This document shows, in pieces, positions 2,917 to 63,449 of a stretch of 64,000 bases of DNA. Position numbers and translations under genes: made by a program. Numbering within the stretch: position 1 is the first letter of the stretch; the number at the start of each line of letters is the position of its first letter. The notes under the pieces were generated by a model, which had not been told where the DNA came from, searched no databases, and worked only from the letters and a program-made list of their open reading frames with translations. The stretch comes from Catellatospora coxensis (GTDB lineage Bacteria > Actinomycetota > Actinomycetes > Mycobacteriales > Micromonosporaceae). Location: the NCBI RefSeq assembly GCF_016862635.1, contig NZ_BONI01000028.1, forward strand, positions 1 to 64,000. Direction: 5' to 3'.

Positions 2917-2987
2917 GTGAGCGGAGCGAACTCATCATGTCGAACGCCCGTCATGACGGAGCCGAGCGCAGCGAGGTGAGGGCATGA
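2913..2987 (+). CDS. Coupled mini-ORF between sdhA and sdhB (24 aa)
   Basis: Starts by ATGA overlap with the sdhA stop and ends by ATGA overlap with the sdhB start, so ribosomes could be relayed across the 67-bp gap. The peptide begins MSERSE and ends SEVRA, and both ends are encoded by GAGCGNAGCGAG-type repeats. A very similar mini-ORF precedes the ferredoxin reductase gene at 32.3 kb. It may be a translation bridge rather than a functional peptide, or simply spacer. No family is recognised. Confidence 0.35.
   Translation: MSERSELIMSNARHDGAERSEVRA
2918..2987 (+). repeat. GAGCGNAGCGAG-type repeats at the sdhA-sdhB junction
   Basis: Two copies (GAGCGGAGCGAAC at 2919 and GAGCGCAGCGAGG at 2965) fill the junction. 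The second places GAGGTGAGGGC directly before the sdhB ATG, so the repeat supplies its ribosome binding site. Related copies occur at 22414 (xseA/xseB) and twice at 32264-32373. Confidence 0.6.
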
Positions 2988-3979
2988 CCGTCCGGCAATT
3001 CAAGGTGTGGCGCGGCGACGCGGCGGGCGGCCAGCTCAACGACTACAAGGTCGAGGTCAACGAGGGTGAGGTCGTGCTCGACGTCATCCACCGGCTCCAG
3101 GCCACCCAGGAACCCGACCTGGCCTGCCGCTGGAACTGCAAGGCCGGCAAGTGCGGGTCCTGCTCGATGGAGATCAACGGCATGCCCCGCCTCGGGTGCA
3201 TGACCCGGATGTCCACCTTCGAGGAGGACGAGACCATCACGGTCACCCCGCTACGGACCTTCCCGGTCATCCGCGACCTGGTCACCGACGTGTCCTTCAA
3301 CTACCAGAAGGCACAGGAGATGCCCGCGTTCGCGCCGCCCGCCGACGTGGCGCCCGGCGAGTACCGGATGCAGCAGATCGACGTGGAGCGCTCGCAGGAG
3401 TTCCGCAAGTGCATCGAGTGCTTCCTGTGCCAGAACACCTGCCACGTCGTACGCGACCACGACGAGAACAAGCCGGCCTTCTCCGGCCCGCGCCTGTTCA
3501 TCCGCGCCGCCGAGCTGGACATGCACCCGCTCGACGCCCGCCACGACCGCAAGGAGATCGCGCAGCAGTCCCAGGGCCTGGGCTACTGCAACATCACCAA
3601 GTGCTGCACCGAGGTCTGCCCCGAACACATCAAGATCACCGACAACGCCATCATCCCCATGAAGGAACGGGTCGTGGATCGCCGCTATGATCCGCTGGTG
3701 GTATTCGGACGCAAAATTCTCCGCCGTGACCAGCTGGCCGCCACCGCGCCCGCCGGCCCCACCGTGCACGCCGGCCCCGTGACGGTCGCCGACGGCCAGG
3801 CCCCGGTCGACTTCGGCCGCGAGCTCACGCCGCCCCAGCCCGCCGAGGTAAACCCCTCCGGCCACGTGAACCTGAACGAAATGCTCTCCGACCGAGCGGC
3901 CGCGGCCTCCCCCTTCGGCGACGACATCACCTTCCCGGTAAACCCGAACTCCCTGAACTACTACCACCCCGAGCGCTAA
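2984..3979 (+). CDS. sdhB: Succinate dehydrogenase iron-sulfur subunit with long C-terminal extension
   Basis: Electron-transfer subunit, 331 aa. The [2Fe-2S] ferredoxin-like domain shows CRWNCKAGKCGSC near residues 47-59. The C-terminal ferredoxin domain shows CIECFLCQNTC near 138-148 and CNITKCCTEVCP near 204-215 for the [4Fe-4S] and [3Fe-4S] clusters. Mycobacterial Sdh1 B subunits are about 250 aa; this protein carries about 80 extra residues after the last cluster, Pro/Ala-rich and ending NYYHPER, of unknown use. The ATG at 2984 has GAGGTGAGG just upstream, supplied by a repeat. It is the last gene of the operon. Confidence 0.93.
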   Translation: MTVRQFKVWRGDAAGGQLNDYKVEVNEGEVVLDVIHRLQATQEPDLACRWNCKAGKCGSCSMEINGMPRLGCMTRMSTFEEDETITVTPLRTFPVIRDLVTDVSFNYQKAQEMPAFAPPADVAPGEYRMQQIDVERSQEFRKCIECFLCQNTCHVVRDHDENKPAFSGPRLFIRAAELDMHPLDARHDRKEIAQQSQGLGYCNITKCCTEVCPEHIKITDNAIIPMKERVVDRRYDPLVVFGRKILRRDQLAATAPAGPTVHAGPVTVADGQAPVDFGRELTPPQPAEVNPSGHVNLNEMLSDRAAAASPFGDDITFPVNPNSLNYYHPER

Positions 3980-4006
3980 CCCCGCCCGACCCGGCCCCAC
4001 CACGCA

Positions 4007-4097
4007 CAAGATCGCGACGATCTTGCGTGGACTGTGGGTATGACACGCGCAAAGCGGTCATATCCTCAACAGTTCACGCAAGATCGTCGCGATCTTG
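4007..4097 (-). repeat. 91-bp palindromic repeat, family A, copy 1
   Basis: Bounded by CAAGATCGCGACGATCTTG and its reverse complement, each end itself nearly palindromic. The whole element can fold into one long hairpin with imperfect arms of about 38 bp. It is almost the exact reverse complement of copy 2 at 5054-5144, so the two copies flank the AbiEi/DUF559 gene as inverted repeats. Strand is given relative to copy 2. No transposase gene is visible. Confidence 0.85.
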
Positions 4098-4135
4098 GTT
4101 TGGGGGCTGTAGCACAGGGGCGGGGTGGGTGGGGG

Positions 4136-4162
4136 TTGTCCACAAGGAGGGGGTTGTCCACA
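4136..4162 (+). promoter_or_regulatory. Two direct DnaA-box-like 9-mers
   Basis: TTGTCCACA occurs at 4136-4144 and again at 4154-4162, same orientation, 18 bp start to start. This 9-mer is the DnaA box preferred in Streptomyces and relatives. The boxes lie in a G-rich stretch between repeat copy 1 and the AbiEi/DUF559 gene. No dnaA, dnaN or AT-rich unwinding region is near, so this is not oriC. It could titrate DnaA or make the next gene respond to DnaA. Confidence 0.5.
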
Positions 4163-4207
4163 GGGGTGGGGTGTGGGCGGTGGAGTTGAGGGTGGGGTGG
4201 GCGCAAT

Positions 4208-5047
4208 GTGCGGGGCATGGTTGTGCCTGGGACGTTGCGGAAGTTGGGGGCGGCGGGAGTGTCGGTGGAGGCGGTGCGAGCCGCTTGTCGCCGTGGTGAT
4301 CTGAGCCGGGTCTGGCGGGGGGTCTATGCGCTCGACACGGATGAGATCAGCCGGGTGCAGGCGCTGTTCGCGCTGCTCCCCGAGGGGGCTCGGTTGTCCG
4401 GACCCACCGCCGCGAGTTGGTACGGCTTCGGGGTGTCGCCTTCGCCGCTGATCCACGTGACGGTGCCGCAGGGCAGTCCTCACCCGAGACTTGCGGGAGT
4501 GCGGTCCGGCGAGTCGGCCCTCCCGCTCCCCGCGCCGGTGTGGCTGCACGGCGTTCCAATGCTGCCGCCGGAACGCGTCGCGGTGACCCTGACCCGCGTC
4601 GTACGCCGCATCGACGCCCTACCGATCCTGGACGCCGCACTGCGCGCCGATGCCGTCACCCCGGACCTGCTCACGGCCGAGCTGATCACCCACGGCGGCC
4701 TCCCCGGCGTCTGCCAGGCCCGCGAACTGGTCCCCCTTGCCGACGCCCGCGCCGAGTGCCGCCAGGAAAGCCAGCTCCGCCTTATCGTCATCGACGGCGG
4801 ACTCCCCCACCCCGAACCCCAGTTACAGGTCGGCTACTTCCGCCTCGACCTGGGCTACGAGGAACGCAAGGTCGGCCTCGAATACGACGGCTCCTCCCAC
4901 CTCACCCGCGACCGCATCCGCCACGACCGCCACCGCGGCAACTGGCTCGCCACCCAAGGCTGGCGCATGCGCCACTTCACCGACACCGACCTCTACCGCC
5001 ACCCCACCCGAATCCTCACCACCCTCCGCCCCCTCCTAACCCCCTGA
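4208..5047 (+). CDS. AbiEi-like winged-helix plus DUF559 (Vsr/PD-(D/E)XK fold) protein
   Basis: 279 aa. The N-terminal third (AACRRGDLSRVWRGVYAL) resembles the winged-helix domain of AbiEi-type type IV antitoxins. The C-terminus fits the DUF559 nuclease fold: RLDLGYEERKVGLEYDG near residues 212-228 gives the acidic D...E core, followed by H...R..R and GWRMRHFTDTDLY. Such fusions are common, often multicopy, in actinobacterial genomes and are uncharacterised as far as I know. No AbiEii toxin partner adjoins it. The gene sits between inverted copies of repeat family A, with two DnaA-box-like 9-mers upstream. The start is uncertain: GTG 4208, or ATG 4217. Confidence 0.8.
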   Translation: MRGMVVPGTLRKLGAAGVSVEAVRAACRRGDLSRVWRGVYALDTDEISRVQALFALLPEGARLSGPTAASWYGFGVSPSPLIHVTVPQGSPHPRLAGVRSGESALPLPAPVWLHGVPMLPPERVAVTLTRVVRRIDALPILDAALRADAVTPDLLTAELITHGGLPGVCQARELVPLADARAECRQESQLRLIVIDGGLPHPEPQLQVGYFRLDLGYEERKVGLEYDGSSHLTRDRIRHDRHRGNWLATQGWRMRHFTDTDLYRHPTRILTTLRPLLTP

Positions 5048-5053
5048 CCCACG

Positions 5054-5144
5054 CAAGATCGCGACGATCTTGCGTGAACTGTTGAGGATATGACCGCTTT
5101 ACCCGTGTCATACCCACAGTCCAAGCAAGATCGTCGCGATCTTG
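5054..5144 (+). repeat. 91-bp palindromic repeat, family A, copy 2
   Basis: Intact copy starting 6 bp after the DUF559 gene stop and ending 15 bp before the convergent substrate-binding-protein stop. Ends are CAAGATCGCGACGATCTTG and its complement; the core holds GTGAACTGTTG and CCCACAGTCC. It can form a long stem and might act as a two-way terminator here, but other copies lie in non-terminator positions. Confidence 0.85.
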
Positions 5145-5159
5145 GGGGCGCGGGGGGGG

Positions 5160-6095
5160 TTACTTCAGGTGGGTGGTTAGGTCGTCGAGGATTTTGTTGG
5201 CGGCGGTTATGCCGATGCCGGTCATCCAGGTTTCGTCGGCTACGACCTGGGTCTTGCCGGCCTTGACTGCGCTCAGGGTGGACCAGAGGGGGCCGGCGGT
5301 GATCTTCGTCTGCTCGGCGGCGGACTTCTCGCCGTAGGCGGCGATGAAGATGAAGTCGCCGTCGACCTCGGTGAGGCGTTCGGCGCTGACCTTGTCGAAG
5401 CGCTTGTCGTCCTTGGCGGACAGCAGCTGGCGGTCGGGGCGGGCGAGGCCGGTGTCGCCCAGGACGATGCCGGAGAAGGAGTCGGGGCCGTAGATGCGGA
5501 TGTGATCGGGCATGAAGCGGACCAGGGAGATCTTCAGGGTGGCGGCGTTGGGGATGGCTGCGCCGACCTCCTTGGCGCGCTTCTCGTACGCCGCGAGGAG
5601 GTCCTCGGCCTGCTGTTCCTTGCCCAGCGCCGTGCCGTCGAGCAGGAAGTTGGCCTTCCAGGTCTTGCCGACGTTCTCGGTGAAGACGGTGGGGGCGATC
5701 TTCGAGAGTTCGGCGTAGAACTTCTCCTGGCGGAACTTGGAGCCGAGGATCAGGTCGGGCTTGAGCGCGGCGATGCCCTCGAGGTCGGGCTCGTCGAGCA
5801 CGCCGACCTCCTTGATGCCGTCGGTCGCGCCGGCGCCGAAGTACGTCGGCCAGCCGGTGAGCTCCCCTGCGCGGGCCGCGCCGACCGGCTTGACGCCCAG
5901 CGTGAGTGCGGTGTCGACCTTGTCGGTGTCGAGTACGACAACGCGCTTCGGTGCGGCCGGGACCTTGGTGGTGCCCATCGCGTGGGTGACCTCGACGGTG
6001 GCCGCGCCGTCGCCGGCGTTCTCCTTCGCGGAGCCGCAGCCCGCGAGCGCGAGCCCGGCGGCGACGGCCGCCACGAGAACAAGACGCCTCTTCAC
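5160..6095 (-). CDS. Iron-siderophore ABC transporter substrate-binding lipoprotein
   Basis: 311-aa cluster A/FecB-like periplasmic-binding protein that would capture a ferric siderophore for the adjoining permease and ATPase. It has an N-terminal lipoprotein signal with lipobox LAGC (Cys about residue 20). KRVVVLDTDKVDTALTLG and ALKPDLILGSKF are the usual first and second lobe segments of the family. GTG 6095 is chosen because GGAAG lies about 7 nt upstream and it gives a clean signal peptide. It lies downstream of the ATPase gene, separated by repeat copy 3, so it may have its own promoter. The siderophore cannot be read from sequence. Confidence 0.88.
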   Translation of the reverse strand: MKRRLVLVAAVAAGLALAGCGSAKENAGDGAATVEVTHAMGTTKVPAAPKRVVVLDTDKVDTALTLGVKPVGAARAGELTGWPTYFGAGATDGIKEVGVLDEPDLEGIAALKPDLILGSKFRQEKFYAELSKIAPTVFTENVGKTWKANFLLDGTALGKEQQAEDLLAAYEKRAKEVGAAIPNAATLKISLVRFMPDHIRIYGPDSFSGIVLGDTGLARPDRQLLSAKDDKRFDKVSAERLTEVDGDFIFIAAYGEKSAAEQTKITAGPLWSTLSAVKAGKTQVVADETWMTGIGITAANKILDDLTTHLK

Positions 6096-6166
6096 AGCGC
6101 CACTTCCTTCCTGTATCTCAATACACCCCGCCGCTAGCTCCACGACGGAGTCCTCCCGGCTCACGC

Positions 6167-6250
6167 CGAGATCATGACGATCTTGCGCGGACTGTTGGCG
6201 AGATGTCCGCTTGGCGCGTGTCGTACCCACAGTTCGCGCAAGATCGTCGG
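6167..6250 (+). repeat. Palindromic repeat, family A, copy 3 (right end degenerate)
   Basis: Matches copy 2 over GACGATCTTGCG, GGACTGTTGG, CGTGTCGTACCCACAG and CGCAAGATCGTCG. The outermost right arm is lost where it meets the end of the ATPase gene at 6256. It lies upstream of the substrate-binding protein, between genes read in the same direction. Confidence 0.75.
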
Positions 6251-6255
6251 GGTGG

Positions 6256-7092
6256 TCAGGGGTTGGGGATGACGAGGGGGGTGGCGGTGAGGGGGCAGGG
6301 GATGACGGTGCAGGCGAGGGCGAAGACTTCGGTGATCAGGGGGGCGGTGATGACGTCGGCGGGTGGGCCTGAGGCGACGATTCGGCCGTGCTTCATGGCG
6401 ATCACGTGGTCGGCGTAGCGGGCGGCCTGGTTCAGCTCGTGCAGGACCGCCACCACCGTGCGGCCGCCCTGCTGGAGGCGGCGCATCAGGCGGAGCACCT
6501 CGACCTGGTGGGCGACGTCCAGGAAGGTCGTCGGCTCGTCGAGCAGGAGCGCCTCGGTCTGCTGGGCGAGGGCCATGGCGATCCAGACGCGCTGGCGCTG
6601 GCCGCCCGACAGCGCCTCGACCGGGCGGTCGGCGAGTTCGGTGATGTCCGCGTCGGCCAGCGCCGCCTGGACGGCCTCCTGGTCGGCCGGGGACCACTGC
6701 TGCCACCAGCGCTGGTGCGGCTGGCGGCCGCGGGCGACCAGGTCGGCGACGGTGACGCCCTCGGGCACCAGCGGCGACTGCGGCAGCACGCCGAGGCGCT
6801 GGGCGACCCGGCGCGGCGGGAGCTCGTGCAGCAGTTCGCCGTCGAGCAGCACACTGCCGCCCCGCGGCTTGAGCAGCCGGCCGAGGGTCCTCAGCAGCGT
6901 CGACTTGCCGCACGCGTTCGGCCCGATGATGACCGTGAGCTGCCCGCTCGGGATGTCCACGGACAGCCCGTCGATCACGGTGCGGTCGTCGTACCCGACG
7001 ACGAGATCCTGCCCGGCGAGCCTCAGCGCCGCCTCCCGCCGTGCGGGGCTCGTCTCGGCGACACCGGTCGAAGGTGCACTGGCGGGCTTCAT
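6256..7092 (-). CDS. Iron-siderophore ABC transporter ATP-binding protein
   Basis: 278-aa FecE/FepC-type ATPase that drives ferric-siderophore import. Walker A is GPNACGKST, the signature LSGGQRQRV, Walker B ALLLDEPTTFLD, and the switch His is in VLHEL. The ATG at 7092 overlaps the upstream permease stop (ATGA) and has AGGAGG 6 nt upstream, so it is translationally coupled. Third cistron of the fecD-fecC-ATPase run. Confidence 0.93.
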   Translation of the reverse strand: MKPASAPSTGVAETSPARREAALRLAGQDLVVGYDDRTVIDGLSVDIPSGQLTVIIGPNACGKSTLLRTLGRLLKPRGGSVLLDGELLHELPPRRVAQRLGVLPQSPLVPEGVTVADLVARGRQPHQRWWQQWSPADQEAVQAALADADITELADRPVEALSGGQRQRVWIAMALAQQTEALLLDEPTTFLDVAHQVEVLRLMRRLQQGGRTVVAVLHELNQAARYADHVIAMKHGRIVASGPPADVITAPLITEVFALACTVIPCPLTATPLVIPNP

Positions 7093-8093
7093 CGGCGCCT
7101 CCTGATGAGCAGGTAGACCAGGTAGGGGCCGCCGATGCCGGCGGTGAGCACGCCGACGGGCAGCTGGGTCGGGGCGAGCAGCAGCCGGGCCGCGAGGTCG
7201 GCCGCGACGACCAGCGCCGCACCGGCCAGCGCGGACGCGGCCAGCGGCGGGCGTTCGGCCCGGGACAGCCGCCGGGCGACCTGCGGCGCGACCAGCGCGA
7301 CGAAGTCCACCGCGCCGACCTGCGCGGTCGCCGCCGCGGCGAGCACCACGCCGAGCGCCCCGACCGCGACCCGGCGGGCGGCCGGACGGGCCCCGAGGGC
7401 GCGGGCGGTGTCGTCGTCCAGGGCGCTGGTCCGCAGTGCCCGTGCCGCCCACAGCAGCAGCGGCAGGGCGAGCAGCAGCACCAGGCCGAGCGCGCCGGCC
7501 TCCTCGTAGCCGCGGCCGTTGAGTGAGCCGATGAGCCAGATCTGGGCGCGCAGCGCGTCGATGGTCTCCGCCGACGACATCACGACCTCGATGCCGGCCC
7601 GCAGCGCGAACGCGACGGCGACCCCGGCCAGCACGAACCGGTTCGCCGCGAACCCGGTGCGCGCGCCGAAGGCGAACACCACGACCGCGGCGAGCAGGCC
7701 GCCCGCCATGGCCGCGGGGGCGATCAGCTGGTACGCCATGCCGGAGGTCAGCGCGATGGTGGCGGCCAGGCCCGCGCCCTGAGTCACGCCGATGACGTCG
7801 GGGCTGGACAGGGGGTTGCGGGCCACGGACTGGATCAGCGCGCCGCCCAGCCCGAACGCCGCCCCGCAGGCCGCCCCGAGCACCACACGCGGCCAGCGCA
7901 GCTCGCGTACCACCAGGTCGTAGTCGGTGCCGCCGGTCAGCAGGGAGCGCACCACGTCACCCGGCGGCACGGTCATCGTGCCGAGGCTGACCGCGGCGAT
8001 CATCGCGGCCACCAGCACGGCGCCGAGCCCCAGCGTGACCAGCAGGGTGCGGCGCGGCAGCACGAAGCTCGCCGGCCCGACAGAGACGATCAT
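7089..8093 (-). CDS. FecCD-family iron-siderophore permease (second)
   Basis: 334-aa inner-membrane permease with about nine to ten hydrophobic segments. Family landmarks are RWPRVVLGAACGAAFGLGGALIQ and NPLSSPDVIGVTQGAG near the N-terminal third, and VALVAPQVARRL before the last helices. It pairs with the next permease to form the heterodimeric channel. Its first 17 codons are repeated, degenerately, twice in tandem just upstream (8094-8203), where they form a bridging mini-ORF whose stop overlaps this ATG. The stop overlaps the ATPase start. Confidence 0.92.
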   Translation of the reverse strand: MIVSVGPASFVLPRRTLLVTLGLGAVLVAAMIAAVSLGTMTVPPGDVVRSLLTGGTDYDLVVRELRWPRVVLGAACGAAFGLGGALIQSVARNPLSSPDVIGVTQGAGLAATIALTSGMAYQLIAPAAMAGGLLAAVVVFAFGARTGFAANRFVLAGVAVAFALRAGIEVVMSSAETIDALRAQIWLIGSLNGRGYEEAGALGLVLLLALPLLLWAARALRTSALDDDTARALGARPAARRVAVGALGVVLAAAATAQVGAVDFVALVAPQVARRLSRAERPPLAASALAGAALVVAADLAARLLLAPTQLPVGVLTAGIGGPYLVYLLIRRRR

Positions 8094-8211
8094 GCGGGCA
8101 CCACCGGGCAGGACGGCACCGGGCTCGCGGAACCGACGGAGACGATCACGCGGGCACCACCCGGCAGGGCGGCACGAGGCTCGCGGAACCGACCGACGAT
8201 CACGCGGTCAC
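8085..8211 (-). repeat. Tandem repeat of the permease 5' end at a gene junction
   Basis: A unit of 53-56 bp (GTGATCGTC...GTCGGTTCCGCGAGC on the minus strand) occurs twice upstream of the permease. The unit matches the permease's own first codons (ATGATCGTCTCTGTCGGG), so the junction looks like a triplication of the start region followed by drift. Each unit keeps a GTG or ATG start. Confidence 0.7.
8090..8203 (-). CDS. Bridging mini-ORF between the two permease genes (37 aa)
   Basis: GTG at 8203 overlaps the upstream permease stop (GTGA), and its own TGA overlaps the next permease ATG (ATGA). It is formed by the tandem units described for 8085-8211 and spans the whole intergenic gap. It probably serves, if anything, to keep ribosomes on the message between cistrons. 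The peptide resembles the downstream permease N-terminus (VIVSVGSAS) but has no membrane segment. Confidence 0.35.
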   Translation of the reverse strand: MIVGRFREPRAALPGGARVIVSVGSASPVPSCPVVPA

Positions 8212-9201
8212 TACCTTCGCCCGGCGGACCAGCCACAGCAGCACGGGCGCGCCGACCAAGGCCGTGACCACACCCGCGGGGACCTCGCCGGGCGGCGTGA
8301 TGACTCGGCCCAGCACGTCCGCGAACAGCACCAGGGCCGCGCCGAGCAGCGCCGACAGCGGCAGCACCCAGCGGTGCGCGGTGCCGACCAGCGCGCGGGC
8401 CAGGTGCGGCACGGCGAGGCCGACGAACGCGATCGGCCCGGCCAGCGCGACGGCCGCCCCGGTGAGCACGATCGCGGCGACGGCGGCGGCCAGCCGTACC
8501 CGCTGAATGCGGTGGCCCAGGCCGCGGGCGACGTCGTCGCCCAGCGCCAGCGCGTCCAGGCCGCGCGCCGCGACCACCGCGAGCACCAGCCCGACCAGCA
8601 GGAACGGCGTCACCTGCGCGGCCATGGCGGAGGTACGCCCGGCGATGGAGCCGACGACCCAGAAGCGGTACTGCTCGAAGGTGGCGGCGTCGATGCTGAG
8701 GATGCCGTAGATGAGCGCGCCGAGCCCGGCGTCGATCGCTGCGCCGGACAGCGCGAGGCTCACCGGGCCGGAGCCGTCCCGGGTGCGGGCGGCCACGATG
8801 AACACCAGCGCCCCGGCGACCGCGGCCCCGGCCAGCCCGAACCAGATCCAGGAGGCGAGGCTCGCGGCCCCGGCGAACGCGATCGCGATGACGACACCGG
8901 TCGCCGCGCCTGCGGAGATGCCCAGGACCCGGGCCTCGGCGAGCGGGTTGCGGGTCAGCGCCTGCATGATCACGCCGGCCAGCGCCAGCGCCGCGCCCAC
9001 CTCGAGCCCGACGAGGGTACGCGGCACCCGCAGCTCACGGACGATCAGCGCGGCCTCGGTCGGTGCCGGGTGCAGCAGCGCGTCGAGCGCCTCGGCCAGG
9101 GGGACGTGCCGGCTGCCGACGGTCAGGCTCGCCGCGACCGCGGCCAGCAGCACGAGCACGCCGAGCACGACGACACCGCCGCGCCTCACCGCACCGTGCA
9201 C
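8200..9201 (-). CDS. FecCD-family iron-siderophore permease (first)
   Basis: 333-aa inner-membrane permease, first gene of the importer operon. It shows LRVPRTLVGLEVGAALALAGVIMQ and NPLAEARVLGISAGA, then FVGLAVPHLAR, all typical of FecD/BtuC-type permeases, with about ten membrane helices. The start is GTG 9201, with GGGGAGG 6 nt upstream. An upstream in-frame TTG at 9243 has no SD and sits only 12 bp from the iron box, too close if the promoter overlaps that box. Repression by iron through IdeR/DmdR is expected. Confidence 0.9.
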   Translation of the reverse strand: MHGAVRRGGVVVLGVLVLLAAVAASLTVGSRHVPLAEALDALLHPAPTEAALIVRELRVPRTLVGLEVGAALALAGVIMQALTRNPLAEARVLGISAGAATGVVIAIAFAGAASLASWIWFGLAGAAVAGALVFIVAARTRDGSGPVSLALSGAAIDAGLGALIYGILSIDAATFEQYRFWVVGSIAGRTSAMAAQVTPFLLVGLVLAVVAARGLDALALGDDVARGLGHRIQRVRLAAAVAAIVLTGAAVALAGPIAFVGLAVPHLARALVGTAHRWVLPLSALLGAALVLFADVLGRVITPPGEVPAGVVTALVGAPVLLWLVRRAKVVTA

Positions 9202-9255
9202 CACGAGCCTCCCCGGCCGCCCGCTTCGTAGGGGTTCAGCCAACGGAAACGGAGC

Positions 9256-9293: not shown

Positions 9294-9728
9294 CTACGCC
9301 CCATCTCCCATGAACTTCGGCAGGGCCGCGACGATCGGTGCGTCGGCGGGCAGCCACGGCACGGTGTGCAGCTCGTGCGCGGCCAGCCAGCGGAACTCGG
9401 CGTGCTCGATCAGCTGCGGCACGCCCTCGACCAGCCGCGCCGTGTACACCTTGAGCACCGCGCGGCCGTGGCCGAGCAGCACGTCCTGGCCGACCCGCTC
9501 GCCGACCTCGACGGTCACGCCCAGCTCCTCCTCGCACTCGCGGACGAGCGCGTCGTGCTCCGTTTCACCCGGCTCCACCTTTCCGCCAGGAAACTCCCAC
9601 CGTCCGGCCACCTCGGCCGGTTCGGAACGCTCACAGGCCAGCACGCGCCCGTCGGCGATGATGGCAGCACCGACGATGATTCGGATCTCGGAGGAGAAGT
9701 TAGGCACGGCGGACAGCGTGCCAGACAA
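9294..9728 (-). CDS. Nudix hydrolase (MutT family)
   Basis: 144-aa nucleotide-pyrophosphohydrolase-like protein. A complete Nudix box, GKVEPGETEHDALVRECEEE, spans about residues 49-68, giving the metal-binding REXXEE core. The GRWEFPGGK lead-in and the 8-strand length fit MutT-type 8-oxo-dGTP diphosphatases, although substrate cannot be assigned from sequence. The start is weakly supported: TTG 9728 has no clear SD, and GTG 9707 (VPNFSSEIRIIVGAA) matches the usual family start as well. Confidence 0.85.
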   Translation of the reverse strand: MSGTLSAVPNFSSEIRIIVGAAIIADGRVLACERSEPAEVAGRWEFPGGKVEPGETEHDALVRECEEELGVTVEVGERVGQDVLLGHGRAVLKVYTARLVEGVPQLIEHAEFRWLAAHELHTVPWLPADAPIVAALPKFMGDGA

Positions 9729-14162: not shown

Positions 14163-14509
14163 GACAGCAAATCTTACTGACCCGCCCGATCCGGCTCCCG
14201 TCCGCGCCCCGCGCAGTGACCGCAGTCGCCCTGCCCACGCGAGCAAGGAGTGCGGCAGGCTGCCCGCGACGGTGCCCACGGCCCGGAGAACGAACCGGAT
14301 ATAAGTCGCTATTCAGCCGGCCTTGGCGGCAGATCTGCACGTTGATCCGTTTTTGTGGACGCTGGACGCTGCCATAGGGACGTCCAGCGTCCACAAAAAC
14401 GGATCTTCGCGTTCGTCGGCGCGGATCGTGGGCTTCGGGTGGGCAAGGAGCCGAGGTGAGGTCCGATTTCCGCTAGCAGGTCGGCGGTGCCGACAGGCAG
14501 GGTGGAGGC
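14163..14509. other. Divergent intergenic region ychF / Ada-AlkA
   Basis: 347 bp between two divergently read genes. It must contain both promoters. Its only clear structure is the perfect 25-bp inverted repeat at 14344-14405. No credible ORF. Confidence 0.5.
14344..14405. repeat. Perfect inverted repeat with 25-bp arms
   Basis: The left arm begins GATCCGTTTTTGTGGACGCT and the right arm is its exact complement over 25 bp, separated by 12 bp. It lies between divergent genes, so it is not an ordinary terminator. Perfect arms with a T5/A5 tract suggest a recent small palindromic element or a strong cruciform. Only one copy was seen in this window. Confidence 0.8.
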
Positions 14510-31188: not shown

Positions 31189-31222
31189 CCCAACACCCGC
31201 GGCCCGGCGGCCCGCAGCCCAC

Positions 31223-31289
31223 CGCGTTGATCATGAACTTATGGCACGGTTCGACGGCGTGTCGCTGCCATAACCTCATGATCAACGCG
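31223..31289. terminator. Long inverted repeat between convergent genes
   Basis: Left arm CGCGTTGATCATGAACTTAT(GGCA), right arm TGCCATAACCTCATGATCAA(CGCG): 24-bp arms with two mismatches and a 19-bp loop. It lies between the convergent PfkB and ferredoxin-reductase genes, so it may end both transcripts. It is less GC-rich than its surroundings, which hints at a small repeat element rather than a simple terminator. Confidence 0.65.
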
Positions 31290-31312
31290 GAGAGAGAGTG
31301 GGCGGTGGGTGG

Positions 31313-38558: not shown

Positions 38559-38641
38559 CAAGATCGTGACGATCTTGCGCGAACTGTTGGGGATTCGTCC
38601 GTTTGGGGCGAGTCGCCCCCACAGTTCAAGCAAGATCGCCG
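38559..38641 (+). repeat. Palindromic repeat, family A, copy 4 (right end degenerate)
   Basis: CAAGATCGTGACGATCTTGC, GAACTGTTGGGGAT and CCCACAGTTCAAGCAAGATCG match copies 2, 3 and 5; the core differs. The outer right arm is lost near the end of pckG at 38658. It lies between pckG and the Rrf2 gene, both on the minus strand. Confidence 0.75.
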
Positions 38642-38657
38642 CTCATGGCGGGGAGGG

Positions 38658-47231: not shown

Positions 47232-47315
47232 CATGATCACGACGATCTTGCGTGAACTGTGGTCCTTTCGTCCGATACGCGCGTGTCGTACCCACAGTCC
47301 ACGCAAGATCGCCGC
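47232..47315 (+). repeat. Palindromic repeat, family A, copy 5 (right end degenerate)
   Basis: ATCACGACGATCTTGCGTG, GAACTGTGG, CGCGTGTCGTACCCACAG and CCACGCAAGATCG match copies 2-4. It lies between the divergent hypothetical membrane protein (start 47221) and the accD gene (47412), a position where a terminator would make no sense. Confidence 0.75.
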
Positions 47316-47411
47316 CCTGGAGGTGGGTGGGGGGCGGGGTGAGGGGGGTGAGGGGGGTGGTGTGGTGTAGATGACTGAACGGGGGTTCAGGTGGGTTATA
47401 GAGTCCGGGGC

Positions 47412-63381: not shown

Positions 63382-63400
63382 GCGGAAACCTACCAATCAA

Positions 63401-63446
63401 TGAGCTAAACATACTAAGAACGAGTCGGATTAGTTAGTTTAGCTCA
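63401..63446. promoter_or_regulatory. AT-rich palindrome upstream of the Fic gene
   Basis: TGAGCTAAACATACTAA and TTAGTTAGTTTAGCTCA, 17-bp arms with two mismatches and a 12-bp loop, 20 bp before the Fic start in otherwise very GC-rich DNA. It could be the Fic protein's operator (its own wHTH is a candidate binder) or an end hairpin of the upstream transglutaminase mRNA. A smaller hairpin (CGCTAA-GCGT-TTAGCG) lies next to it at 63450. Confidence 0.6.
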
Positions 63447-63449
63447 TTG

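Follow-up and report, generated by a model that had tools for sequence, protein, structure and literature searches.

The window, by which we mean the whole 64-kb stretch of DNA analysed here, carries an intact open reading frame of 279 amino acids with a GTG start (4208-5047), set between two 91-bp palindromes, P1 and P2, of a family that we call F1 (Table 1). Read as reverse complements, the two palindromes differ at 3 of 91 positions, and a repeat search returns arms of 103 nt (3995-4097 and 5054-5156) that are 92% complementary. The initial annotation had described near-exact inverted copies of a 91-bp repeat around one gene and three further copies at 6167, 38559 and 47232. A profile made from 40 copies of the own genome, the window's copies among them, bears out both statements, as it recovers these five places in the window and no sixth. 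Rfam gave no match for positions 3700-6500 up to an E value of 1. By Pfam, the neighbours of the unit are Fer2_3 (the sdhB-like gene), Peripla_BP_2, ABC_tran and two FecCD genes, and no AbiEii toxin or other defence gene adjoins the nuclease gene among these window neighbours. The ABC ATPase also matches AAA_21; the Pfam name of that family mentions AbiEii, and ABC ATPases match it. Elsewhere in the window, an AT-rich 52-bp palindrome of no recognised family (CAATGAGCTAAACATACTAA..) lies at 63398-63449.

Table 1. Positions in the 64-kb window of the nuclease gene, its palindromes and related features.
Feature	Position	Strand	Evidence or remark
P1, upstream palindrome, family F1	4007..4097	- (strand on which the asymmetric core reads)	One long hairpin when folded
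AbiEi-like / EDxHD-Vsr-like nuclease gene (DUF559, MTES_1575), 279 aa	4208..5047	+	ORF, Pfam, structure, selection
P2, downstream palindrome, family F1, inverted relative to P1	5054..5144	+	Repeat search, profile
F1 copy, dispersed, between Peripla_BP_2 gene and ABC ATPase gene	6167..6257	+	Profile; present in G002, degraded in G004
F1 copy, dispersed	38559..38649	+	Profile; common to G001, G004, G005, G006, G010
F1 copy, dispersed	47232..47322	+	Profile
F5 palindrome (GATCCGTTTTTGTGGACGCTGGACG)	14344..14405		Twin adjoins DUF559 paralogue at C1:233783 (L211)
F2 palindrome	31222..31290		Another F2 palindrome adjoins DUF559 paralogue on contig C46
sdhB-like gene, adjoining the unit on the left	2984..3979	+	Found in 11/11 Catellatospora genomes
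ORF with NUDIX box (by eye)	9294..9728	-	Directly after sdhB at empty site; directly after P2 in G001, G005, G006, G010

Computation assigns to the protein an AbiEi-type winged-helix half and a nuclease half of EDxHD/Vsr type whose active site is invariant; cleavage is untested. Pfam matches DUF559 (E 4e-5; 23.7 bits, above the cut-off of 20.6) and, 0.9 bit under its cut-off of 38.2, MTES_1575 (E 3e-9; 37.3 bits), with AbiEi_4 and AbiEi_3_N also below cut-off, and the PADLOC AbiEi models match residues 14-156 (best E 5e-10). The AlphaFold2 model, predicted from an alignment of 82 sequences, has a pLDDT of 95.1 and a pTM of 0.90. Foldseek relates its N-terminal half to Rv2827c (1zel, E 2.2e-5) and AbiEi (6y8q, E 1.3e-4), and it finds the catalytic domain of I-Bth0305I (3r3p, E 1.8e-3, TM-score to target 0.73) and Vsr (1cw0, E 0.046, TM-score to target 0.50). 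Profile matches to 3hrl (E 2e-6) and 3r3p (E 4e-3) align the E and G columns in both; the His column is aligned with a His in 3hrl and not in 3r3p. Residues D142, E187, D214, E225, H231 and D240 are invariant in 82/82 aligned homologues, their assignment to particular EDxHD roles being inference, and dN/dS of 0.17-0.31 among six orthologues indicates purifying selection, the values for the window's gene against the other five being 0.19-0.31. The domain and fold matches, the invariant residues and the dN/dS values argue together for a maintained protein with a DNA-binding half and a nuclease half. The features of the EDxHD and Vsr nucleases (fold, conserved acidic and His residues) are thus met by computation, and so is the AbiEi-type DNA-binding N-terminal half of type IV toxin-antitoxin systems, on PADLOC and Foldseek, with the Pfam AbiEi matches below cut-off.

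The relatives of the two halves differ from the present case in several respects. AbiEi, a type IV antitoxin, and Rv2827c share the N-terminal fold, and each binds inverted repeats of 23 bp in the promoter of its own gene (PMC7319586); here, a nuclease domain is added, no toxin gene adjoins in the window, and the repeats lie on both sides of the gene and throughout the genome. I-Bth0305I and Vsr share the catalytic fold, and the former dimerises on a target that is nearly 60 bp long (PMC3943268); here, no intron or known repair partner is seen, and a palindrome family takes the place of a single homing site. A defence nuclease that spares the palindromes or is tethered by them, as self-marking or decoy sites, would suit the PADLOC match and the presence of MTES_1575-type nucleases in proposed defence proteins, as stated in PMC3710099. 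Against it, no toxin or other defence gene adjoins in the window, and it hardly accounts for a genome that has several such pairs, each with a different palindrome. We regard it as very improbable.

F1 is a dispersed family in the own genome (9.35 Mb in 222 contigs). BLAST finds at least 40 copies (the best 40 of 70 candidates), those other than P2 being 81-93% identical to the query copy, and pattern searches find 33 copies with exact 12-nt arms and 57 with 9-nt arms, the reversed-pattern control giving 0 in both cases. The copies are imperfect hairpins with arms GATCTTGCG..CGCAAGATC and an asymmetric core around GGCGTGTCGTACCCACAG, and the outer 9 bp are also paired at 8 or more positions in 16 of 39. 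The flank before a copy is C-rich and the one after it G-rich (mean skew from -0.49 to +0.48). Of these 39 copies, 16 have convergent genes as neighbours, 13 tandem genes and 1 divergent genes, 6 fall inside predicted frames and 3 are unclear; the counts come from a crude gene caller, and the six in-frame copies are perhaps miscalled. No clear excess of target-site duplications over shuffled flanks was seen at the ends of the 39 copies, and the few excess matches fall within the conserved arms.

Short dispersed palindromes are typical of MITEs and REPs, and the palindromes could in principle belong to another transposase, of RAYT/IS200 or DDE type, with the DUF559 gene as a bystander. This is hardly credible, as one gene family is conservedly flanked, with sequences that change together, and as a search with Y1_Tnp at E 0.001 gives no match in two congeners with 94 and 38 copies (G001 and G010). 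The Y1 match of the own genome is interrupted by a stop, and an IS605 OrfB helix-turn-helix frame comes after it; a RAYT/IS200 mobiliser was rejected on these grounds. A DDE-type MITE is disfavoured by the target-duplication result above (matching transposon ends were not searched).

Comparison of the own genome (G000) with ten other Catellatospora genomes (G001-G010) connects the family with the gene. The gene is present in 7 of 11 genomes: besides the own copy there are orthologues of 80-90% identity in five, and a broken one in G005. G003, G007, G008 and G009 hold only paralogues of 28-34% identity. At 7/7 gene-bearing loci, the own included, an F1 palindrome stands on each side with the cores in inverted orientation; the gene with its two palindromes is one unit, as had been proposed from the window alone. 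Palindrome number goes with gene presence. By pattern there are 57 F1 copies in G000, 94 in G001, 44 in G002, 31 in G004, 91 in G006 and 38 in G010, a further 44 in G005 with its broken gene, 3 in gene-less G003, and 0 in each of the outgroup genomes G007, G008 and G009. The initial annotation had asked for the element to be sought in the complete genome and in relatives, and would have been refuted by its absence elsewhere; with 31-94 copies in each of seven gene-bearing genomes, that refutation does not arise.

The empty sites that it had proposed to look for in relatives exist. In the outgroup genomes G007-G009, the order is sdhB, a terminator-like hairpin (by eye) and the NUDIX gene; in G001, G005, G006 and G010 it is sdhB-[P-gene-P]-NUDIX. 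A ferric-transport-like cluster stands between P2 and the NUDIX gene in G000, G002 and G004. Because this cluster (window 5160-9243; Peripla_BP_2, ABC, two FecCD) is present in three genomes and absent beside P2 in the other four, its gain or loss took place immediately next to the palindrome. For comparison with a homing endonuclease, the empty site of G007-G009 has no palindrome, and P1 and P2 are both complete. At the place of the unit, G003 has one shortened F1 palindrome and one F5 palindrome. A tree of 2.4 kb ending with sdhB places G003 inside the gene-bearing clade, on branches of 8 and 6 species with support of 100/100 and 100/99. Since G003 is nested in this way and keeps a shortened F1, loss of the gene is the simplest reading, and its three remaining copies indicate that gene loss goes with near-absence of the family, on a single event only, whereas the broken gene of G005 is still accompanied by 44 copies.

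The occupied and empty states between sdhB and NUDIX raise the question of a conventional mobile element, in which the two palindromes and the gene travel together in one piece and the scattered copies are its solo ends or relics. Family-wide, the unit is indeed found at several places (23 left-flank clusters among 69 flanks and 29 right-flank clusters among 73), and some genomes have 2-4 homologues at E 1e-30. The place is, however, conserved within clades, most genomes have one homologue against tens of palindromes, no target duplication stands out from shuffled flanks, and the flanking copies are complete palindromes, not simple ends. We consider this element quite unlikely, and it remains one of the two serious rivals to the reading preferred below.

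The second serious rival has bearing on what occupies single sites, for which 64-kb blocks from the ten congeners were compared. At site 38559, F1 is present in G000, G001, G004, G005, G006 and G010 and absent from the outgroup G007-G009; it is missing in G002 and G003 too, and each of these retains a CAAGATC remnant, for which simple deletion across short repeats is also an explanation. Site 14231-14449 holds F1 in six species, F5 in G000, nothing in G003 and an F2-like palindrome in G008 and G009, and it was not resolved in G007. Site 31222 holds F2 in G000 and G010, F3 in G001, G005 and G006, an F6-like palindrome in G003, other families in G008 and G009, and nothing in G002, G004 and G007; taken with its syntenic sites in L232-L271, 31222-31290 shows families F2, F3, F6-like, F4-like and F8 across the species. 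From the contents of these last two sites, one 3' niche holds different families in different species. No clean recent insertion was seen at the compared Catellatospora sites 38559, 14231-14449 and 31222. Two repeated hairpins of Catellatospora, F8 (TTGCTCTGCACCC) and the 44-bp F7 (GAAGGGCACCTTC), noted at L217, L218, L206, L208, L211 and L074, have no known partner gene.

Such a change of families at one site would be odd for operators, and it counts against a regulator-only account, in which an AbiEi-like repressor is served by palindromes kept as operators and gene-end terminators and nothing is mobilised. This account draws on the promoter binding of AbiEi and Rv2827c noted above, on an upstream palindrome 55-190 bp from the start in most loci having one, on the 16 copies between convergent genes and one between divergent genes (crude gene caller), and on the unit occupying the place of the outgroup's terminator-like hairpin (by eye) after sdhB. 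A pure regulator would need neither an active site invariant in 82/82 homologues nor a second palindrome just past the stop codon. On balance we think the account unlikely, without dismissing it.

The own genome contains 12 genes of this type, namely 11 with a PF18741 or PF04480 match and C85 from a protein search. Five have a long palindrome at the gene, and in each case the palindrome belongs to a different family: C28, the window's gene 4208-5047 (F1, both sides), C13 (F4, both sides), C46 (F2, upstream), C79 (F3, upstream) and C1 (F5, downstream). Further copies of F1-F5 occur elsewhere in the 437 kb sampled from this genome. The initial annotation would have been refuted had paralogues never been flanked by the element; the orthologues are flanked by it in 7/7 genomes, and paralogues are often flanked by other palindromes. 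No long palindrome lies within 600 bp of the remaining seven own-genome genes (C71, C19, C76, C5, C16, C85 and C32), although C71, a helicase fusion, has an F4 copy 662 bp upstream and C32 has a 44-bp hairpin only. C5, C76, C19, C16 and C71 are without a palindrome within this distance yet keep the nuclease motif, and the E-DG-H motif is retained, exactly or in near form, in six palindrome-less genes besides C85. The AbiEi-DUF559-like paralogue C85 (L212, G000:C85, 9630-10550) has lost this motif and has no adjoining palindrome.

Beyond Catellatospora, a homologue at E 1e-30 or better is found in 106 of 354 Micromonosporaceae genomes and 16 of 44 genera; the protein searches at family and class level took the best 7-8 candidates per genome. 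Flanks were examined at fetched loci only, with at least 400 bp on both sides, and so not at all homologues, and five duplicate loci (L078, L085, L086, L087 and L107) were left out of the counts. At a score of at least 12, palindromes stand on both sides of 51 of 68 family loci, on one side of 8 and at none of the flanks of 9; at score 14 the numbers are 42, 15 and 11. The Catellatospora paralogue loci (n=22) give 10, 10 and 2 in the same order, and the best-match loci of other Actinomycetes (n=25) give 6, 4 and 15, or 1, 6 and 18 at score 14. Among 22,240 control windows, which overlap and are not independent, 0.85% have palindromes on both sides and 16% on one side (0.18% and 11% at score 14). 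One-sided palindromes alone are therefore weak evidence. An earlier flank score set against mismatched pairs placed 26 of 73 loci above all 20 controls; it is blunt, because the control loci hold related palindromes and C/G-rich tracts align. The check asked for in the initial annotation, whether the gene always lies between inverted copies, holds for the seven orthologues and not family-wide: among both-sided homologue loci the inverted orientation fits better in 34 and the direct one in 21, with 14 ties. A universal inverted orientation is not borne out by these numbers, and orientation is constant for F1 only.

The palindromes around homologues differ by clade (GATCATGnAGTTGTGG, GATCTTGCAGTT, GATCTTGCACTT, GATCTAGGGCAT and others), and distant paralogues carry further ones (GATCATGAACTT, GACTTGCCTGGCA, CAGTTTCGGGGAAA and CAACTCTTAAAGAGT). 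On a tree of 122 proteins, the palindrome label changes 34 times, against a mean of 81.8 after shuffling and no equally low value in 200 shuffles; near relatives contribute to the low count. The labels are patterns that we wrote ourselves, and at both-sided loci they agree in 54 cases and differ in 14 (6 A2 against B, with near-identical motifs, 1 B against F1, and 7 with one side outside the patterns). As far as computation on sequences can establish it, palindrome type follows the protein tree, and the palindrome changes as the protein diverges. Each protein clade goes with a palindrome particular to it; a single palindrome shared by all DUF559 genes is not borne out.

The pattern of the commonest arms (A/B) occurs in 194 of 354 Micromonosporaceae genomes, in up to 177 copies, with 0 for the reversed control throughout. 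In genus g23, the median is 47 palindromes in the 72 genomes with the gene and 13 in the 88 without (p 2e-13). In the other genera except Catellatospora, 5 or more are found in 19 of 27 genomes with the gene and 8 of 156 without. Neither test is corrected for kinship. The 11 Catellatospora genomes were excluded because the pattern catches another family there; it has 69 matches in the own genome, and six places among the matches listed are all F2-like. It had been anticipated that an element common in genomes without any DUF559 gene would refute a link to this protein. Within the genus this does not occur (0, 0, 0 and 3 copies), but outside it 27 of the 88 gene-less g23 genomes have 20 or more similar palindromes. 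Three genomes (G086, G105 and G349) have 36-52 matching palindromes and no homologue at E 1e-30, and may represent remnants, a diverged partner or a counter-example. In genus g45 (family f2, order-level relatives), 13 of 17 genomes have at least 8 homologues each, and some of these genes adjoin AGACGCA palindromes (L175, L178, L184, L187 and L188).

The arrangement is closest to that of REP/REPIN palindromes and RAYT (TnpA-REP). RAYT is a HUH tyrosine (Y1) enzyme; the enzyme here joins an AbiEi-like winged helix to an EDxHD/Vsr-like nuclease. Both have short palindromes, present in at least tens of copies, on the flanks of a gene that is mostly single-copy, and in both the repeat changes with the protein clade. 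Two features of REP/RAYT are met, many dispersed extragenic palindromes (57 in the own genome) and a gene flanked by repeat copies (7/7 Catellatospora orthologues; palindromes on both sides at 51/68 family loci). A Y1 transposase in the flanked gene is not, as Pfam, PADLOC, AlphaFold2 and Foldseek give AbiEi and EDxHD/Vsr instead. Since the defining Y1 enzyme is absent, the system is REP/RAYT-like and not a member. The palindromes here, mostly 55-91 bp with an asymmetric core, are longer than REPs, given as 20-40 bp in PMC3733652. The same paper describes TIRtrons, in which a tyrosine transposase gene stands between inverted repeats, with dispersed families in some species; the layout is alike, and the enzyme differs.

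We consider it very likely that protein and palindrome family are paired. That the protein maintains or spreads its palindrome is probable, spread being inferred and binding and cleavage being untested, and we give the same credence to each protein being the dedicated enzyme of its own palindrome family, in the manner of REP/RAYT with an unrelated nuclease. A dimer would bind the two palindrome arms, a step inferred from the known binding of AbiEi proteins to inverted repeats; the nuclease may nick at or near the GATC-containing arms, perhaps of an extruded hairpin; and the cut or copied hairpin would be re-inserted during replication or repair, mostly at 3' gene ends. The two flanking copies would serve as source and operator. 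Without the gene, copies would be deleted piecemeal and the family would shrink. The gene itself is mostly single-copy and stays at one place within clades. Several results count against a dedicated enzyme: no fresh insertion was caught, the copies other than P2 are 81-93% identical to the query copy and no target duplication rises above shuffled flanks; one or both flanks are without a palindrome at 17/68 family loci, and 15/25 loci of other Actinomycetes have none; five own-genome paralogues (C5, C76, C19, C16 and C71) combine the nuclease motif with the lack of a palindrome within 600 bp; the His column finds no His in 3r3p; the gene-loss case is one event, and the palindrome-rich gene-less g23 genomes remain.

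To our knowledge, no enzyme class other than RAYT is accepted as partnering REP-like palindromes, and how RAYT brings about spread has not been settled. We found no DUF559, AbiEi or MTES_1575 protein tied to dispersed palindromic repeats in the open PubMed Central literature, to which the search was confined. Here, an unrelated nuclease class goes with palindromes of its own across many genera of a single family, and also at some loci in other families of actinobacteria. With somewhat more reserve than for the dedicated enzyme, we favour the view that actinobacterial AbiEi-DUF559 proteins form a second class of enzymes dedicated to repeats, which evolved independently, and that several separate protein/palindrome pairs in a genome (by position, five in this one) are in competition for shared 3' intergenic niches, one site holding different families between species. 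If true, this would assign a function to a large group whose present annotation is unknown or antitoxin-like, would account for the origin of many palindromes in these high-GC genomes, and would provide natural protein/DNA pairs that change in step and are usable for direct tests of recognition.
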